Source: Hoeflea sp. IMCC20628
GTDB taxonomy: Bacteria; Pseudomonadota; Alphaproteobacteria; Rhizobiales; Rhizobiaceae
Length of the DNA: 64,000 nucleotides
Direction: 5' to 3'
Assembly (NCBI RefSeq): GCF_001011155.1
Contig: NZ_CP011479.1
Span: 3,118,501 to 3,182,500 of the forward strand
Shown here: positions 59,333 to 64,000 of the stretch, piece by piece
Position numbering within the stretch: position 1 is the first letter of the stretch
Layout: the number at the start of each line of letters is the position of its first letter
Made by a program: the position numbers and the translations under genes
Notes under the pieces: generated by a model
What the model was told of the DNA's origin: nothing
The model's database searches: none
Seen by the model: the letters and a program-made list of their open reading frames with translations, nothing else

Positions 59333-60670
59333 CTATTCGGCGGCTTCCAGCCGCACCGTCTTGACTGCGATTGGCAATCCGACGGGTTTTTCGCCGCCAT
59401 AGACCCAGTCGAGCAATTCCACCGTGTGGATGATCGGGATATCGGTGCCGCCGGCGATCTGGGTCATGCAGCCGATGTTGCCGGTGGCGATCAGGTCCGG
59501 CTTGGTGCTTTCGATGTTTTTCACCTTGCGGTCACGCAGCGTGCGGGCAATCTCGGGCTGCATGATGTTGTAGGTGCCAGCCGATCCACAGCACAGATGG
59601 CCCTCGGGCGGGTCCTTGACGGTAAAGCCCGCAGCCTTGAGCAGCGCCTTGGGCTGCACCGTGATCTTCTGGCCATGCTGCATCGAACAGGCCGAATGAT
59701 AGGCCACGACCATGTTTGCGCCATTGACTGGAGCTGGCATCCCGATGGTGGCAAGGTATTCGGTGATGTCCTTGGCGAGCGCGGACACGACGGCGGCCTT
59801 TTGCGCATAGGCCGGGTCCTCACGCAACATGAAGCCATAATCCTTGATCGTCGTGCCACAGCCCGATGCAGTGATGATGATGGCATCCAGACCGCCATTG
59901 TCGATTGCCCGCGTCCAGACGTCGACATTGTTGCGCGCGGCGTCGAGCGCATCGTGCTCGCGGCCCATGTGATGCACCAGCGCGCCGCAACAGCCCTCGC
60001 CTTCCGGCACCACCACTTCGACACCAATGCGGTTGAGCAACCGGATTGTCGCCTCGTTGATGCCGGGCTTGAGCACCGGCTGCGCGCAACCGGTGAGGAT
60101 GGCGACACGGCCACGGCGTACAGCGGAAGCGGCATGGGTTCCCGGTTTGGCGAATTTCGACGGCTCGGGTACGGAAGCCGGCGCAAGTTCCAGCATCGCG
60201 GCCACCGGTTTCATGCCGGGCAGCACCTTGAACAGCGGCGCGAATGGACGGCCGATGCGGGCGGCGTAAAGCGAAGCGCGGAAGCGTCCTGGATAAGGCA
60301 AAACAAGCGCCAGCAATCCACGGATCAACCGGTCGGTGAGCGGCCGCTTGTAGGTCTTTTCGATATGGGCGCGGGCATGGTCCACCAGATGCATGTAATT
60401 GACGCCCGACGGGCATGTGGTCATGCAAGCCAGGCAGGACAGGCAGCGGTCGATATGGGTGACCACCTGCTTGTCGGCGGGCCGGTCATTTTCCAGCATG
60501 TCCTTGATCAGATAGATCCGGCCACGCGGGCTGTCGAGTTCATTGCCGAGCGTCACATAGGTTGGGCAGGTGGCGGTACAGAAACCGCAATGGACGCATT
60601 TTCTGAGGATCTTTTCGGATTCGGCGACACCGGGGTCTTGGAGTTGCTCGACGGTGAAATTGGTCTGCAT
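59333..60670 (-). CDS. glcF: Glycolate oxidase iron-sulfur subunit
   Basis: A 445-residue GlcF that passes electrons from the GlcD/GlcE flavin part to the respiratory chain. Two 4Fe-4S motifs are present: CVHCGFCTATCPTY and CLSCLACMTTCPSG. Two CCG-type domains follow (GCCGALVHHMG; LCCGSAGTYN). The ATG at 60670 overlaps the receiver gene's stop (TGATG), with GGGGAAAAG in that gene as ribosome site, so its translation now depends on the inserted gene. Confidence 0.94.
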   Translation of the reverse strand: MQTNFTVEQLQDPGVAESEKILRKCVHCGFCTATCPTYVTLGNELDSPRGRIYLIKDMLENDRPADKQVVTHIDRCLSCLACMTTCPSGVNYMHLVDHARAHIEKTYKRPLTDRLIRGLLALVLPYPGRFRASLYAARIGRPFAPLFKVLPGMKPVAAMLELAPASVPEPSKFAKPGTHAASAVRRGRVAILTGCAQPVLKPGINEATIRLLNRIGVEVVVPEGEGCCGALVHHMGREHDALDAARNNVDVWTRAIDNGGLDAIIITASGCGTTIKDYGFMLREDPAYAQKAAVVSALAKDITEYLATIGMPAPVNGANMVVAYHSACSMQHGQKITVQPKALLKAAGFTVKDPPEGHLCCGSAGTYNIMQPEIARTLRDRKVKNIESTKPDLIATGNIGCMTQIAGGTDIPIIHTVELLDWVYGGEKPVGLPIAVKTVRLEAAE

Positions 60671-61098
60671 CAACTTTTCCCCGCGTATTTTTCAACAAAC
60701 TTCACAACGGAAACACTTGAACTGACGACATCTTCTGCTCCAGCCTCCATTAGTTTCGCTCGGCTACCTAAACCTCTCGCGCCAGCGAATATCAGAACCG
60801 GCATTTTTTCATCAATTTTTCGAATCAGTTTAAGCAACTCCAATCCGGCAAATTTGTTATCGAATCCGTTCTCCATTCTTCCTAAATCTGAAATTACTGC
60901 TGAATAATCTAAACTTGAAATTTTGCTTAATGCGTCTTCCGTACTAATGGACAGATCAATGTCTACCCCCTTCTCCTTGAATGACTCAATCAAGTGGGCA
61001 TTGTTTATCGGGAAATCATCTACCCACAAAACTCTCCGGGAGCTCCCTATAGCAGCAGAAAATTCTTTTTCCTCTATAAACGCTTCGCCATTTTCCAT
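60670..61098 (-). CDS. Atypical response-regulator receiver protein in the AT-rich insert
   Basis: A 142-residue stand-alone receiver fold with no output domain. The acidic pair Asp27-Asp28 (VLWVDDFP) and phospho-acceptor Asp71 (VISDLG) are present. The Thr/Ser of strand 4 is Ala105 (LIFAGARG) and the conserved strand-5 Lys is Ser (EDVVSSS), so normal phosphoryl signalling is doubtful. GC is about 40 %. Four bases after the small membrane protein gene and overlapping glcF by one base. Could be a pseudo-receiver adaptor; function unknown. Confidence 0.75.
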   Translation of the reverse strand: MENGEAFIEEKEFSAAIGSSRRVLWVDDFPINNAHLIESFKEKGVDIDLSISTEDALSKISSLDYSAVISDLGRMENGFDNKFAGLELLKLIRKIDEKMPVLIFAGARGLGSRAKLMEAGAEDVVSSSVSVVKFVEKYAGKS

Positions 61099-61320
61099 CT
61101 TCTATACTCTTTCCTGAATATCAAAAATATCTTTCCTAAAATTTTCGGCCATCTCTTGCGCTGTGATCTCAAAACCAGCGAATTTTATAGTCATATTACT
61201 CTTCTTGAATATTGATTTTATAAATGGTTGAAGTCGAAAAAAGACGACCATAAAAGCTATTGGCCAAGCTAGCGAAGCAACTGCAGACCAGAATTCAGCT
61301 TCTATAAATAAATCAGCCAT
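60690..61320. other. AT-rich two-gene insert within the glycolate oxidase operon
   Basis: GC over 60-base lines here runs 28-53 % (mostly 32-45 %), against 60-70 % in glcF, glcE and glcD. The insert holds only the membrane protein and receiver genes, begins directly after the DUF4870 stop and ends at the glcF start. No direct repeats, integrase or insertion-sequence ends were found at the edges. Typical acquisition by homologous replacement or illegitimate recombination is inferred. Confidence 0.7.
61102..61320 (-). CDS. Small single-pass membrane protein in the AT-rich insert
   Basis: A 72-residue protein. One transmembrane helix covers about residues 10-30 (FWSAVASLAWPIAFMVVFF); a basic KSIFKKSN follows, then a cytosolic amphipathic tail (IKFAGFEITAQEMAENFRKDIFDIQERV). 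The frame is open upstream to 61386, but the ATG at 61320 lies one base after the DUF4870 stop and was chosen. With the receiver gene four bases downstream, it may be the receiver's membrane partner. No family is recognised. Confidence 0.65.
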   Translation of the reverse strand: MADLFIEAEFWSAVASLAWPIAFMVVFFRLQPFIKSIFKKSNMTIKFAGFEITAQEMAENFRKDIFDIQERV

Positions 61321-61321
61321 G

Positions 61322-61699
61322 TCAGAGCAGCCAGCTTTGCGGATTGGCGATGGATTCGTTGCGGCCAAGTTTCTGGAGACCCACAACGGTGCGGACGATG
61401 ACCCAGATTGCGACCAGGATCATTGTCAGCATGCCGATCATGACGATCATCAGCAGCCCGCTGATAAACACACCCAGAAGGCCGAGCCAGAAGGTTCTGA
61501 TTGCCCAGGTGTAATGGCTCTCGAGCCAGGGCTCCGATTTGCCGCGATTGAGGTGGGCCAGCACAATGCCGACGATGCCGGTGATTCCGATGACGAAACT
61601 CGCCAGATACAGGATGTAGATGACCTGCAGATTGGCCTTGCCGGGTTCGAGCCAGCGATCTGTCTGGCGCGGTTCAGGGGCGTGGTCCGGATTGCTCAT
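61322..61699 (-). CDS. DUF4870-type membrane protein
   Basis: A 125-residue protein with three hydrophobic helices (VIYILYLASFVIGITGIVGIVLAHL; FWLGLLGVFISGLLMIVMIGMLTMILVAIWVIV). It has a soluble N-terminus (SNPDHAPEPRQTDRW) and matches DUF4870/Tic20-like membrane proteins of unknown function. GAAGGAGC precedes the ATG. It lies 46 bp after glcE and is part of the glycolate operon by position. Confidence 0.75.
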   Translation of the reverse strand: MSNPDHAPEPRQTDRWLEPGKANLQVIYILYLASFVIGITGIVGIVLAHLNRGKSEPWLESHYTWAIRTFWLGLLGVFISGLLMIVMIGMLTMILVAIWVIVRTVVGLQKLGRNESIANPQSWLL

Positions 61700-61745: not shown

Positions 61746-62963
61746 TCACATGGTGTCGGTCATGCGACCCGGATTGAGAATGCCGCCGGGATCGAACTGG
61801 TCCTTGATGCGCCGTGCCAGGGCCTCCAGCGGTTTGGGCTGTGGTTCGAACACCGGCACCGTTGTCCGGATGGCTGCATCGGCGCGCACCAGCGTAGCGT
61901 GACCGCCGCCAAGCGCCTTGATGTATTGGCGGATCAAATCGGCCTCGGGATCGGCTTCCATGCACAGCCAGACCAGACCTCCCTGCCAATCGTAAAACGC
62001 ATTGACGCCGGTCTTGAGCCGCAGCGCCGCGACCAGTTGGTGGCCGGCGCTTGGGGCGACAGACACCCGCCAGACCGGCTTCATGCTGCCATCGGCAAAG
62101 GGTTTCACATCGCGGATGTCGCGCCAGAGATCGCGGGATCCTTCAGTCGCAAGCACTGTGACCTCGCCGCGACGGCTCATTTCCGCAACCAGCCGTTCGG
62201 TACGCACCGTGACAGACGGGATCAGGCCTTCGAGCCGCAGAACGGTCGCCGGGCCGCCGGGGAGACCACTGCCTGCGAACTTATGAATCACGCTTTCAGG
62301 CAGATGCGCCGCCCCCGACACTTCCACTGACATGGTCATGGCTGCGGCCATAGCTTCGGCGGCTTGTGCATCATTGAGACCGGACACAACAATCGAGACG
62401 GAGGTTTCAGGCTTCGGCAGTACCTTGAAAATGACTTCACAGAGAACTCCGAGTGTGCCCCAGGAGCCCGCCAGCAGCTTGACCAGATCGAGACCGGTGA
62501 CATTTTTCATCACCCGGCCACCGCTTTTGACTAATTCGCCGGAGCCGTTGACGAAGCGGACGCCAAGCAGACTGTCACGTGCTGCACCTGCAAGGATACG
62601 CCGCGGGCCCGCGATGTTTGCGGCAAACACGCCGCCAATGGTTGGCTCGCCAGTTGAGCCGAGCAGTGGCCGGTAATCCATCGGCTCAAAGGTGAGCATC
62701 TGGTTGTTGGCATCGAGCGCCGCCTCGATTTCGGCAAGCGGCGTGCCGGCGCGGGCTGCCATCACCAATTCCGATGGATCGTAATTGGTGATGCCGCTGA
62801 GCCTTGCCAGCGACAGCGTCGCGGCGGATTGCACCGGCCGGCCAAAGCTCAGCTTGGTGCCGCTGCCCCTGATCTCGATCGGCTGCTTGGCGGCGTTTGC
62901 CTCGGTGACGATACGCGCCACATCGTCTTCGGTTTCGGGATACTGGATGTCCACCGCACTCAT
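61746..62963 (-). CDS. glcE: Glycolate oxidase FAD-binding subunit
   Basis: A 405-residue GlcE with the PCMH-type FAD-binding fold: EIRGSGTKLSFGRP, LGSTGEPTIGGVFAANIAGPRRI and GSWGTLGVLCEVIFKVLP. It lacks the long substrate domain of GlcD and pairs with it. The ATG overlaps the glcD stop by four bases. Confidence 0.94.
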   Translation of the reverse strand: MSAVDIQYPETEDDVARIVTEANAAKQPIEIRGSGTKLSFGRPVQSAATLSLARLSGITNYDPSELVMAARAGTPLAEIEAALDANNQMLTFEPMDYRPLLGSTGEPTIGGVFAANIAGPRRILAGAARDSLLGVRFVNGSGELVKSGGRVMKNVTGLDLVKLLAGSWGTLGVLCEVIFKVLPKPETSVSIVVSGLNDAQAAEAMAAAMTMSVEVSGAAHLPESVIHKFAGSGLPGGPATVLRLEGLIPSVTVRTERLVAEMSRRGEVTVLATEGSRDLWRDIRDVKPFADGSMKPVWRVSVAPSAGHQLVAALRLKTGVNAFYDWQGGLVWLCMEADPEADLIRQYIKALGGGHATLVRADAAIRTTVPVFEPQPKPLEALARRIKDQFDPGGILNPGRMTDTM

Positions 62964-64000
62964 GCTGCTGTCCTGCCTTTATCGGCAGCGCTTTGATTGC
63001 CCGGCTGGCTGCCATTGCGACGGTCCAGGGGAAACACCTTGGACGGATTGAGGATCCATTTGGGATCGAAGGCGGCGCGCACGCGCATCTGCTGGGCCAG
63101 ATCTATATCGGAATATTGGTGCCGCATGAGATCCCGCTTTTCGATGCCGACGCCATGTTCACCGGTCAGGCAGCCGCCGGCGTCGACGCACAGTTTGAGA
63201 ATGTCGTTGCCCGCCATTTCGGCTTTCAGGCTTTCCTCGGGATCATTGGCATCAAACAGAATCAGCGGATGCATGTTGCCGTCGCCGGCATGAAACACAT
63301 TGGCGACGCGCAGTCCGTAACGGTCGATGATCTCGCTGGTCTTGGCCAGCACATGGGACAGTTGCCCGAGCGGCACGGTGCCGTCCATGCAGATATAGTC
63401 GGCGATGCGGCCGGTGGCGCCGAAAGCCGATTTCCGGCCCTTCCAGATCAGCGCCGCTTCCGTCGCTGACTGGCTTTCCCGGATTGTCTTGACGCCATGC
63501 TTGCCGGCAATCGCAATGATGCGCTCCAGCATGGCGTCCATTTCTGCGTCCGAACCCTCGACCTCGACGATCAGCAACGCCTCGACATCCATCGGGTAAC
63601 CGGCATGAGCAAAGGCTTCGCAAATTTCGATGGCCGGCTTGTCCATGAATTCGATGGCAACAGGAATGATGCCCGAGCCGATGATGTCGGTAACACATGC
63701 CCCGGCGGCCACGGAGGTTTCAAAACCGAACAGCACCGGACGCGCTCCTTCGGGCTTGGCAATCAGCCTGACGGTTGCTTCAGTGACAATACCGAGTTGG
63801 CCTTCCGAGCCGCAGATCAGCCCCAGCAGATCGTATCCTGCCGAATCCAGCGCCTTGCCGCCAATGTCGACGACAGAGCCATCGAACATCACCATCTTGA
63901 CGCCCATCAGATTGTTGGTGGTGACGCCATATTTGAGGCAGTGGGCGCCACCGGAGTTCATCCCGATATTTCCGCCGATGGTGCAGGCCAGCTGCGAACT
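62960..64000 (-). CDS. glcD: Glycolate oxidase catalytic flavoprotein subunit (5' partial)
   Basis: The C-terminal 346 residues of GlcD are visible; the frame runs off the window edge at base 64000. GGNIGMNSGGAHCLKYGVTTNN is FAD-domain sequence, and HAGDGNMHPLILFD with GCLTGEHGVGIEKRDLM belongs to the substrate domain with catalytic His. It oxidises glycolate (or lactate) to glyoxylate. First gene of the glc operon, glcD-glcE-DUF4870-insert-glcF. Confidence 0.94.
   Translation of the reverse strand, partial: SSQLACTIGGNIGMNSGGAHCLKYGVTTNNLMGVKMVMFDGSVVDIGGKALDSAGYDLLGLICGSEGQLGIVTEATVRLIAKPEGARPVLFGFETSVAAGACVTDIIGSGIIPVAIEFMDKPAIEICEAFAHAGYPMDVEALLIVEVEGSDAEMDAMLERIIAIAGKHGVKTIRESQSATEAALIWKGRKSAFGATGRIADYICMDGTVPLGQLSHVLAKTSEIIDRYGLRVANVFHAGDGNMHPLILFDANDPEESLKAEMAGNDILKLCVDAGGCLTGEHGVGIEKRDLMRHQYSDIDLAQQMRVRAAFDPKWILNPSKVFPLDRRNGSQPGNQSAADKGRTAA

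Follow-up and report, generated by a model that had tools for sequence, protein, structure and literature searches.

Receivers of defence and conflict settings are among the closest described counterparts of the gene examined here. In the Detocs defence setting, DtcB is a stand-alone receiver without a DNA-binding output. One report proposes kinase-independent receivers of conflict systems as nucleotide-responsive switches (PMC8195603), and a second links cRec domains to NAD+/ADP-ribose enzymes (PMC7824862). Our literature search, with incomplete coverage of subscription papers, found neither a description of this transmembrane (TM)-receiver gene nor any mention of glcDEF as an insertion slot. 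We analyzed such a gene in a 64,000-nucleotide stretch of the Hoeflea sp. IMCC20628 genome (contig NZ_CP011479.1, positions 3,118,501 to 3,182,500; hereafter the window), where it lies within the glycolate oxidase operon. A prior sequence-only reading had described the element as two genes, a receiver with a tiny membrane partner, that might form a defence-like module acquired whole. Our analysis showed that it is one TM-receiver gene interrupted by one amber codon. We favor the reading, at a probability of about 0.6, that this is an acquired gene for a membrane-anchored, kinase-less receiver, now amber-split, of a conflict-type single-gene cargo carried in expressed operons.

The element occupies 651 bases of the minus strand (60670-61320), set between a DUF4870-like gene and glcF. 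Its guanine-plus-cytosine (GC) content was 39.2%, close to the 40% of the sequence-only reading, with 34.7% in the TM half and 41.5% in the receiver half. The flanking genes fell below the 65% that had been given for them (DUF4870-like gene, 57.9%; glcF, 61.4%; glcE, 62.4%). The tight boundaries were as previously described. The membrane open reading frame (ORF) starts 1 base past the stop of the DUF4870-like gene, and the receiver TGA shares one base with the glcF ATG (TGATG). All 651 bases form one continuous frame, in which the sole internal stop is a TAG, followed by AAG and the receiver ATG; there are no other stops or frame breaks. Since a single in-frame TAG parts them, the two ORFs are the open halves of one frame.

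Relatives confirmed this assignment. A contig scan with one receiver alignment matched 500 stretches, 468 of which encode a relative; the best 80 were kept and, with five loci from other searches, a total of 85 were read. The receiver usually lay inside a larger single protein. As judged by eye, the commonest N-terminus was a hydrophobic helix followed by an IKIAGxELTxE...DLQ-type segment and a linker, and others were TIR, DUF4062-like or larger parts; that of L279 is presumably DNA-binding-like. Intact close-clade relatives were single genes encoding a membrane helix, hairpin, coiled helix, linker and atypical receiver. The membrane-half protein of the window (query P0001) aligned over residues 1-72 to 72 residues at the N-termini of two of these (44% in L032, 39% in L027), and the receiver-half protein (query P0002) was 41-49% identical to nine near relatives. 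Identity to the nearest relatives was 43-50%. For the intact L032 protein (216 aa), an AlphaFold model built on 25 rows placed a helix at residues 8-39, a hairpin at 44-53 and a second helix at 54-78, before a poorly defined linker and a confident receiver. The mean predicted local distance difference test (pLDDT) score was 87.3, with blocks of 61-69 for the hairpin and coiled helix. On the common frame and the fused close relatives we rejected a two-gene mobile system, and the supposed membrane partner is the amber-interrupted front half of a single gene family. Two separate conserved genes, as in a two-gene toxin-antitoxin pair, were likewise not found, the close relatives being fused and the window holding one frame.

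By the P0001 alignment and the L032 model, the stop lies close to where the membrane module gives way to the linker. If the gene were intact and the TAG an error of sequencing or assembly, a single lesion would be accounted for, but a stop without a frame shift, in an assembly of 3 contigs that is 99.99% complete, makes such an error very unlikely. Interrupted copies also occurred elsewhere: L036 has an in-frame stop inside the membrane helix, and L026, L052 and L095 have frame breaks, although L052 and L095 come from metagenome bins and their breaks may be assembly faults. These copies suggest that the gene may be dispensable.

The pattern in the window (one lesion near a domain border, an ATG 3 bases on and an open second half) fits early loss and a working split alike. 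Under the latter, stopping and restarting would yield a cooperating membrane peptide and free receiver, near the original idea of two proteins. Such a split is favored by the position of the stop, at the end of the coiled helix (its last turns) and directly ahead of the linker, by a start codon 3 bases away and by the lack of any further stop or frame break in the 651 bases. However, no second genome among the 85 loci carried the same split, and the other broken copies break elsewhere. The C-terminal half must also stay open because glcF, if coupled, needs its translation, such that the open frame may serve only this coupling. Residue 125, Thr in 77 of 85 aligned receivers, is Val in the window. 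We consider a functional split possible, but on balance doubtful.

The C-terminal half is an atypical receiver. P0002 matched Pfam PF00072 above the cut-off (E 1.4e-10), and an AlphaFold model of the window receiver half gave pLDDT block means of 93-98 over residues 21-140. Foldseek paired the L032 model with the solved receivers 6ont, 5uic and 1zh2 (E 1.5e-7 to 6e-7), with a TM-score by target length of about 0.8 for the top receivers. The window protein has the canonical fold, acidic pair (D27/D28) and acceptor (D71). At the sites placed by alignment, Ala105 stands for the conserved Thr/Ser and Ser127 for the Lys. The sequence-only reading had recognized both losses, which proved largely family-wide. 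Thr or Ser was present at site 105 in 16 of 85 aligned receivers. Among 84 receivers, 67 had Ser at site 127, 7 had Arg and 1 had Lys. The acceptor Asp71 (85 of 86) and Arg74 (86 of 86) were conserved independently of the contig-scan pattern, which required neither; the acidic pair was constant (86 of 86), though the pattern demanded it. As had also been stated, there was no histidine kinase or output domain beside the receiver, its operon neighbors being glcD, glcE, the DUF4870-like gene and glcF. A canonical orphan response regulator served by a remote kinase would explain the PF00072 match and the kept Asp triad. The rarity of Lys and Thr/Ser at their sites, and the fusions to membrane helices, TIR and similar parts in the loci read, argue against this, and we regard it as highly improbable.

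The gene proved nearly absent from relatives. P0002 was searched against 61 genomes, namely its own and 60 relatives, including 17 congeners (two of them only 75-77% complete). Besides the window copy, the only strong match was in G046 (= L004). Matches in the 17 other species of the genus (E <= 1e-5) had an identity of about 31-33% and appear to be ordinary response regulators. Weaker matches in 21 further genomes (E 5e-8 to 8e-6, about 30% identity) were taken as putative ordinary response regulators as well. P0001 had no match in 100 other genomes. Broader searches found the gene in 4 of 385 genomes of the class (close-clade model, E <= 1e-14; window included) and 4 of 297 of the order (E <= 1e-8; window and G046 included). 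The own genome held no second copy, its two other matches being 30% identical parts of larger frames. Phage records contained no match for P0002 or L241. P0002 matched 90 plasmid records, none covering 80% of the query, and the best two were Proteus mirabilis records of chromosome size. The viral_contigs set gave 11 loci, four of which share one match, a gene found beside prophage in E. coli.

The comparison of the glcE-glcF interval that had been called for gave a similar result. Of 18 genomes of the genus, 17 had a glcF match, with full-length orthologues 82-92% identical in 15 congeners. Among the 17 congener loci, 13 had the DUF4870-like gene only, two combined it with another insert, one was empty and one was unusable. 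Our family survey read 80 of at least 217 genomes with a match. The DUF4870-like gene occupied 15 of the 16 congener loci that could be used and 43 of the 80 from the family; the TM-receiver was in none of either (0 of 16; 0 of 80), a distribution not expected of a resident component. In the nearest congener (GlcF 92%), a short leader with a purine-rich stretch lies between the DUF4870-like gene and glcF, and the window insert occupies its place. Foreign composition and the empty sites within the genus point to probable acquisition of the insert.

Composition was also compared across the 76 of 85 loci having at least 6000 bases. The TM-receiver gene was AT-richer than its flanks in 58 (median -2.5 points GC), and 38% of the genes fell below -5 points, as did 14% of 306 controls. 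The nine loci of the close clade in this set (L027, L029-L036) were all below -5 points. AT-richness as a family trait was upheld only in part.

The gene lies directly before glcF in eight genomes, window included. Copies in L004, L027, L029, L032, L034 and L035 have glcE upstream, and the L028 contig begins within the gene region; in L032, a DUF4870-like gene precedes the TM-receiver gene, as in the window. The seven other carriers belong to other genera, and each gene (41.5-67.1% GC) is AT-richer than the measured glc genes (63.7-78.7%). Because the carriers at this junction are other genera and AT-richer than their flanks, the TM-receiver is unlike a resident part of the glycolate operon. 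The sequence-only reading had named occurrence at the same place, with ordinary GC, in most relatives as a point against acquisition. The recurrent junction in seven genomes answers to the first part of this, but the distance of the carriers and their AT-richness do not.

The expectation of relatives at unrelated loci was borne out. L030 and L033 carry it in the S10 ribosomal operon, between rplP and rpmC-rpsQ (Pfam confirmed S17 of L030 and L16 of L033; other ribosomal genes were recognized by eye). In L031 it lies 24 bases behind tyrS (Pfam), and the frame ahead of L036 we take to be the end of EF-Tu (tuf). In both S10 loci, alphaproteobacterial metagenome bins, the operon is interrupted from rplP to rpmC by the TM-receiver gene together with a 2OG-Fe(II) oxygenase gene (L030:4192-7281, L033:1920-9701). 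The oxygenase was assigned by Pfam in L030 and by a similar frame in L033, which also has an ion channel gene (Pfam).

A receiver tree (86 rows, 127 columns; with so few columns, the bootstrap had not settled) required at least two changes, gains or losses, of the glc label on supported branches. The Phaeobacter glc copy L034 was nested with the S10 copies L030 and L033 (100/84), within a group including L036 (100/95). As the glc carriers are not one clade, the gene either reached the glc junction at least twice or left it for other sites. This bears on whether the gene is a dedicated glycolate oxidase regulator, a membrane-anchored receiver tuning GlcDEF assembly or activity. Such a role would fit the eight genomes with the gene directly before glcF and the tree, in which four of the five rows nearest the window by path are glc copies. 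In contrast, L034 is 69-70% identical to the S10 copies, others sit behind tyrS or apparently tuf, the gene is missing from the surveyed family and congener junctions, and the same junction hosts unrelated cargo. On the close copies in S10, tyrS and tuf-like contexts we rejected a glycolate-specific regulator as the principal explanation and consider it improbable.

The cargo of the glcE-glcF junction was diverse. Among the 80 family junctions, 42 held the DUF4870-like gene only, 26 nothing over 120 bases, and three a gap of 167-202 bases without a nameable gene. Seven held a DUF433-like gene and partner (one of these alongside DUF4870), one DUF433 and the nuclease described below, and one a 156-codon gene of 48% GC. 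DUF433 was tested by Pfam in L148 only, with the rest assigned by similarity; the partner we take to be PIN-like, with no Pfam match for the one tested. Junctions holding these DUF433/PIN-like pairs were 56-64% GC. L129 and L198 both have the DUF4870-like gene at the junction. The 156-codon ORF (L182) lacks a Pfam match and ends right at glcF, making it candidate cargo. The congeners L110 and L121 carry an insert gene of 44.6-45.7% GC. It encodes a protein with a NucS_C nuclease domain (L110, E 7e-10) that is also hit by PADLOC candidate models PDC-S02 (2e-15). In both, the stop of this gene lies 3 bases before glcF. In L121 (1-4332), a leader like the native glcF leader precedes the nuclease gene, as though insertion had hit the glcF start codon. 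An order search added 27 loci, one with an insert that is presumably a CDF-type transporter gene. Altogether, accessory genes other than the DUF4870-like gene were present in 13 of 124 loci, window included, and 12 of the 13 exceed 560 bases. This total and the 92 loci below include L206, L207 and L213 (no glcE-glcF insert) and exclude the repeat genomes L208 and L209; L124 was excluded for want of a glcF start.

The neighboring glcD-glcE junction showed a similar range. At least 600 bases were present in 16 of 92 junctions, all of which were read; the remaining loci did not reach glcD. We identified DUF559 (L152 by Pfam; L130, L134, L167, L193 and L200 by eye), PIN (L162 by Pfam; L185 by eye), a MazE-type antitoxin (L145, Pfam) and a sub-threshold SLATT-like gene (L155). 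The genes of L127, L128, L159, L190 and L199 are presumably ASCH-like, though L127, the sole one tested, had no Pfam match; the sixteenth, L188, gave no assignment. L155 has inserts in both junctions. As a control, we used the hisS-hisZ (28) and hisZ-hisG (30) junctions of 30 family genomes, own included. A gap of at least 560 bases was found in 0 of 58, the longest being 350-397 bases in three hisS-hisZ junctions. Fisher tests against this control gave p = 0.010 for glcE-glcF alone (0.018 if the window is left out) and p = 0.0012 when both glc junctions are counted.

Defence-like contexts appeared in the wider family. TIR-receiver proteins were identified by Pfam in L074, L090 and L092 (the three scanned) and by eye in L097 and L100. 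L096 is a sub-threshold DUF4062-like fusion that matched PADLOC PDC-S60 at 1.7e-27; L024 is a GAF fusion, and L048 encodes a protein with trypsin-like and TPR domains. This last, a Saprospiraceae protein of 1454 aa (L048:3300-7664), has two receiver stretches, and part of it matches PADLOC RT-Protease models. A two-helix receiver form occurred in 26 of 5426 E. coli genomes, its gene at least 99% identical among them. In the two E. coli loci read, prophage genes flank it on one side, and the opposite side holds yfgI, an AAA ATPase and an integrase remnant. In L280:10033-12777 (E. coli NZ_CP082776.1), the AAA ATPase, integrase remnant and two-helix receiver gene make up a small accessory block running from yfgI to the prophage end. 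A receiver 38% identical to L235 occurs in Rhizobium phaseoli, on a plasmid typed as conjugative, within a SAV_2336-type protein adjoining a MoxR ATPase, with a trypsin-like peptidase nearby. Of the MoxR/VMAP-type or TIR-type contexts that would be looked for in conflict receivers, TIR was seen in five family loci and MoxR/SAV_2336 in one plasmid locus, with none at the window.

These TIR and DUF4062-like fusions, the MoxR/SAV_2336 and prophage-side contexts, and the proposals of PMC8195603 and PMC7824862 lead us to favor a conflict-type switch over two-component signalling. In the favored reading, the gene would have been acquired horizontally as single-gene cargo of a type carried within expressed operons. 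The host promoter would drive its transcription, and its translation would be coupled to that of glcF. This proposed arrangement would make clean loss costly. Where the gene is intact, as in the relatives, its receiver probably acts as a kinase-independent switch responsive to a ligand or phosphate, given its acidic pocket and acceptor Asp and the loss of most Thr and Lys sites. The N-terminal module (TM here; TIR, DUF4062-like and others in relatives) would act as effector or anchor. In the window, ribosomes would stop at the TAG and may restart at the ATG 3 bases on, giving a membrane peptide and soluble receiver. This leaves two states: a gene on its way to loss, its second half held open by coupling, or a split form that remains functional. 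The suggestion of an acquired defence-like module therefore stands in part: foreign composition, the lack of a relative in the genus and distant defence-like contexts agree with it, but not as a two-gene system.

Several points weigh against this reading. The function of the TM-receiver we infer from sequence, and PADLOC returned nothing for P0001 or L032 and only E 0.0084 to PDC-M49A for P0002. The window copy may be non-functional, since Val125 departs from the family and broken copies occur elsewhere. Absence in the congeners could equally reflect repeated loss, and the tree forces changes of location, not entries as such. Outside the close clade, most TM-receiver genes show only a small AT excess over their flanks, and their contexts are mixed. 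The his control is one compact biosynthetic operon chosen post hoc, scored on gap length only and drawn from genomes differing from the 80.

A broader proposal is tentative, and we hold it rather less probable than not. A class of single-gene conflict cargo may insert seamlessly at or just before start codons in strongly expressed housekeeping operons (glcDEF, S10, tyrS, tuf). Its 3' end would supply the ribosome-binding site of the next host gene, which would then need translation of the cargo, and retention would come from coupling, not from a toxin. glcDEF would then be a shared docking site at which receivers, toxin-antitoxin-like pairs and nucleases replace each other. Searches for accessory and defence genes commonly focus on islands and prophage edges. 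They could miss this compact family, which seems to pass from one unrelated housekeeping operon to another and occupies a slot also used by toxin-antitoxin-like and nuclease genes. The locus also offers a testable case of how a foreign gene may secure its own retention, through capture of a useful neighbor's translation start, and it points to a family of kinase-less receivers.

Features of the locus are collected in Table 1. The names glcD, glcE and glcF are those we take the host genes to bear. The DUF4870-like protein scored 23.4 bits in Pfam against a cut-off of 25. A GGGGA a few bases 5' of the glcF start could be a candidate ribosome-binding site.

Table 1. Coordinates of the interrupted TM-receiver gene and its operon neighbors in the window.
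Feature	Coordinates	Strand	Basis
N-terminal (membrane) half: helix, hairpin, coiled helix; 72 codons; ends in in-frame TAG (61102-61104)	61102..61320	-	Translation
TAG amber codon and one AAG codon parting the two open halves of one frame	61099..61104	-	In-frame translation
C-terminal half: atypical receiver domain, 142 codons	60670..61098	-	PF00072, AlphaFold model, identity to relatives
Acidic pair D27-D28 (metal site) of receiver	61015..61020	-	Family alignment
Acceptor aspartate D71 in S-D-L-G-R motif	60886..60888	-	Family alignment
GGGGAAAAGTTGATG: receiver stop overlapping glcF start	60668..60682	-	Sequence
glcF, glycolate oxidase iron-sulphur subunit	59333..60670	-	Translation; name presumed
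DUF4870-like membrane protein gene	61322..61699	-	PF09685 E 6.2e-5, below cut-off
glcE	61746..62963	-	FAD_binding_4 E 1.8e-25; gene name presumed
glcD, truncated by window end	62960..64000	-	Open frame; name presumed

Compared with known systems, the window protein shares the fold, acidic pair and acceptor Asp of CheY-like PF00072 receivers. It differs in that the Thr/Ser and Lys sites are lost in the window and mostly lost in the family, no kinase partner is present, both models show an extra hairpin after the acceptor strand, and the receiver is fused to a membrane helix. DtcB of Detocs is similar by description, as a receiver lacking DNA-binding output in a defence setting, but the locus studied here has neither a partner kinase nor an effector gene. 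The toxin-antitoxin-like and nuclease cargo (DUF433 with PIN-like partner, NucS_C, DUF559, PIN) resembles it as small accessory genes at the same operon junctions, many near the next gene; their proteins are unrelated to the TM-receiver, and the DUF433/PIN-like junctions are of 56-64% GC. The conflict receivers (PMC8195603) and cRec domains (PMC7824862) are putative counterparts, from which the window protein differs as a lone TM-receiver in a metabolic operon. They resemble it as conserved-Asp receivers outside histidine-kinase systems and are tied to conflict systems of NAD-type or ternary kind; TIR fusions and one MoxR/SAV_2336 context occur in the wider family of the window protein.

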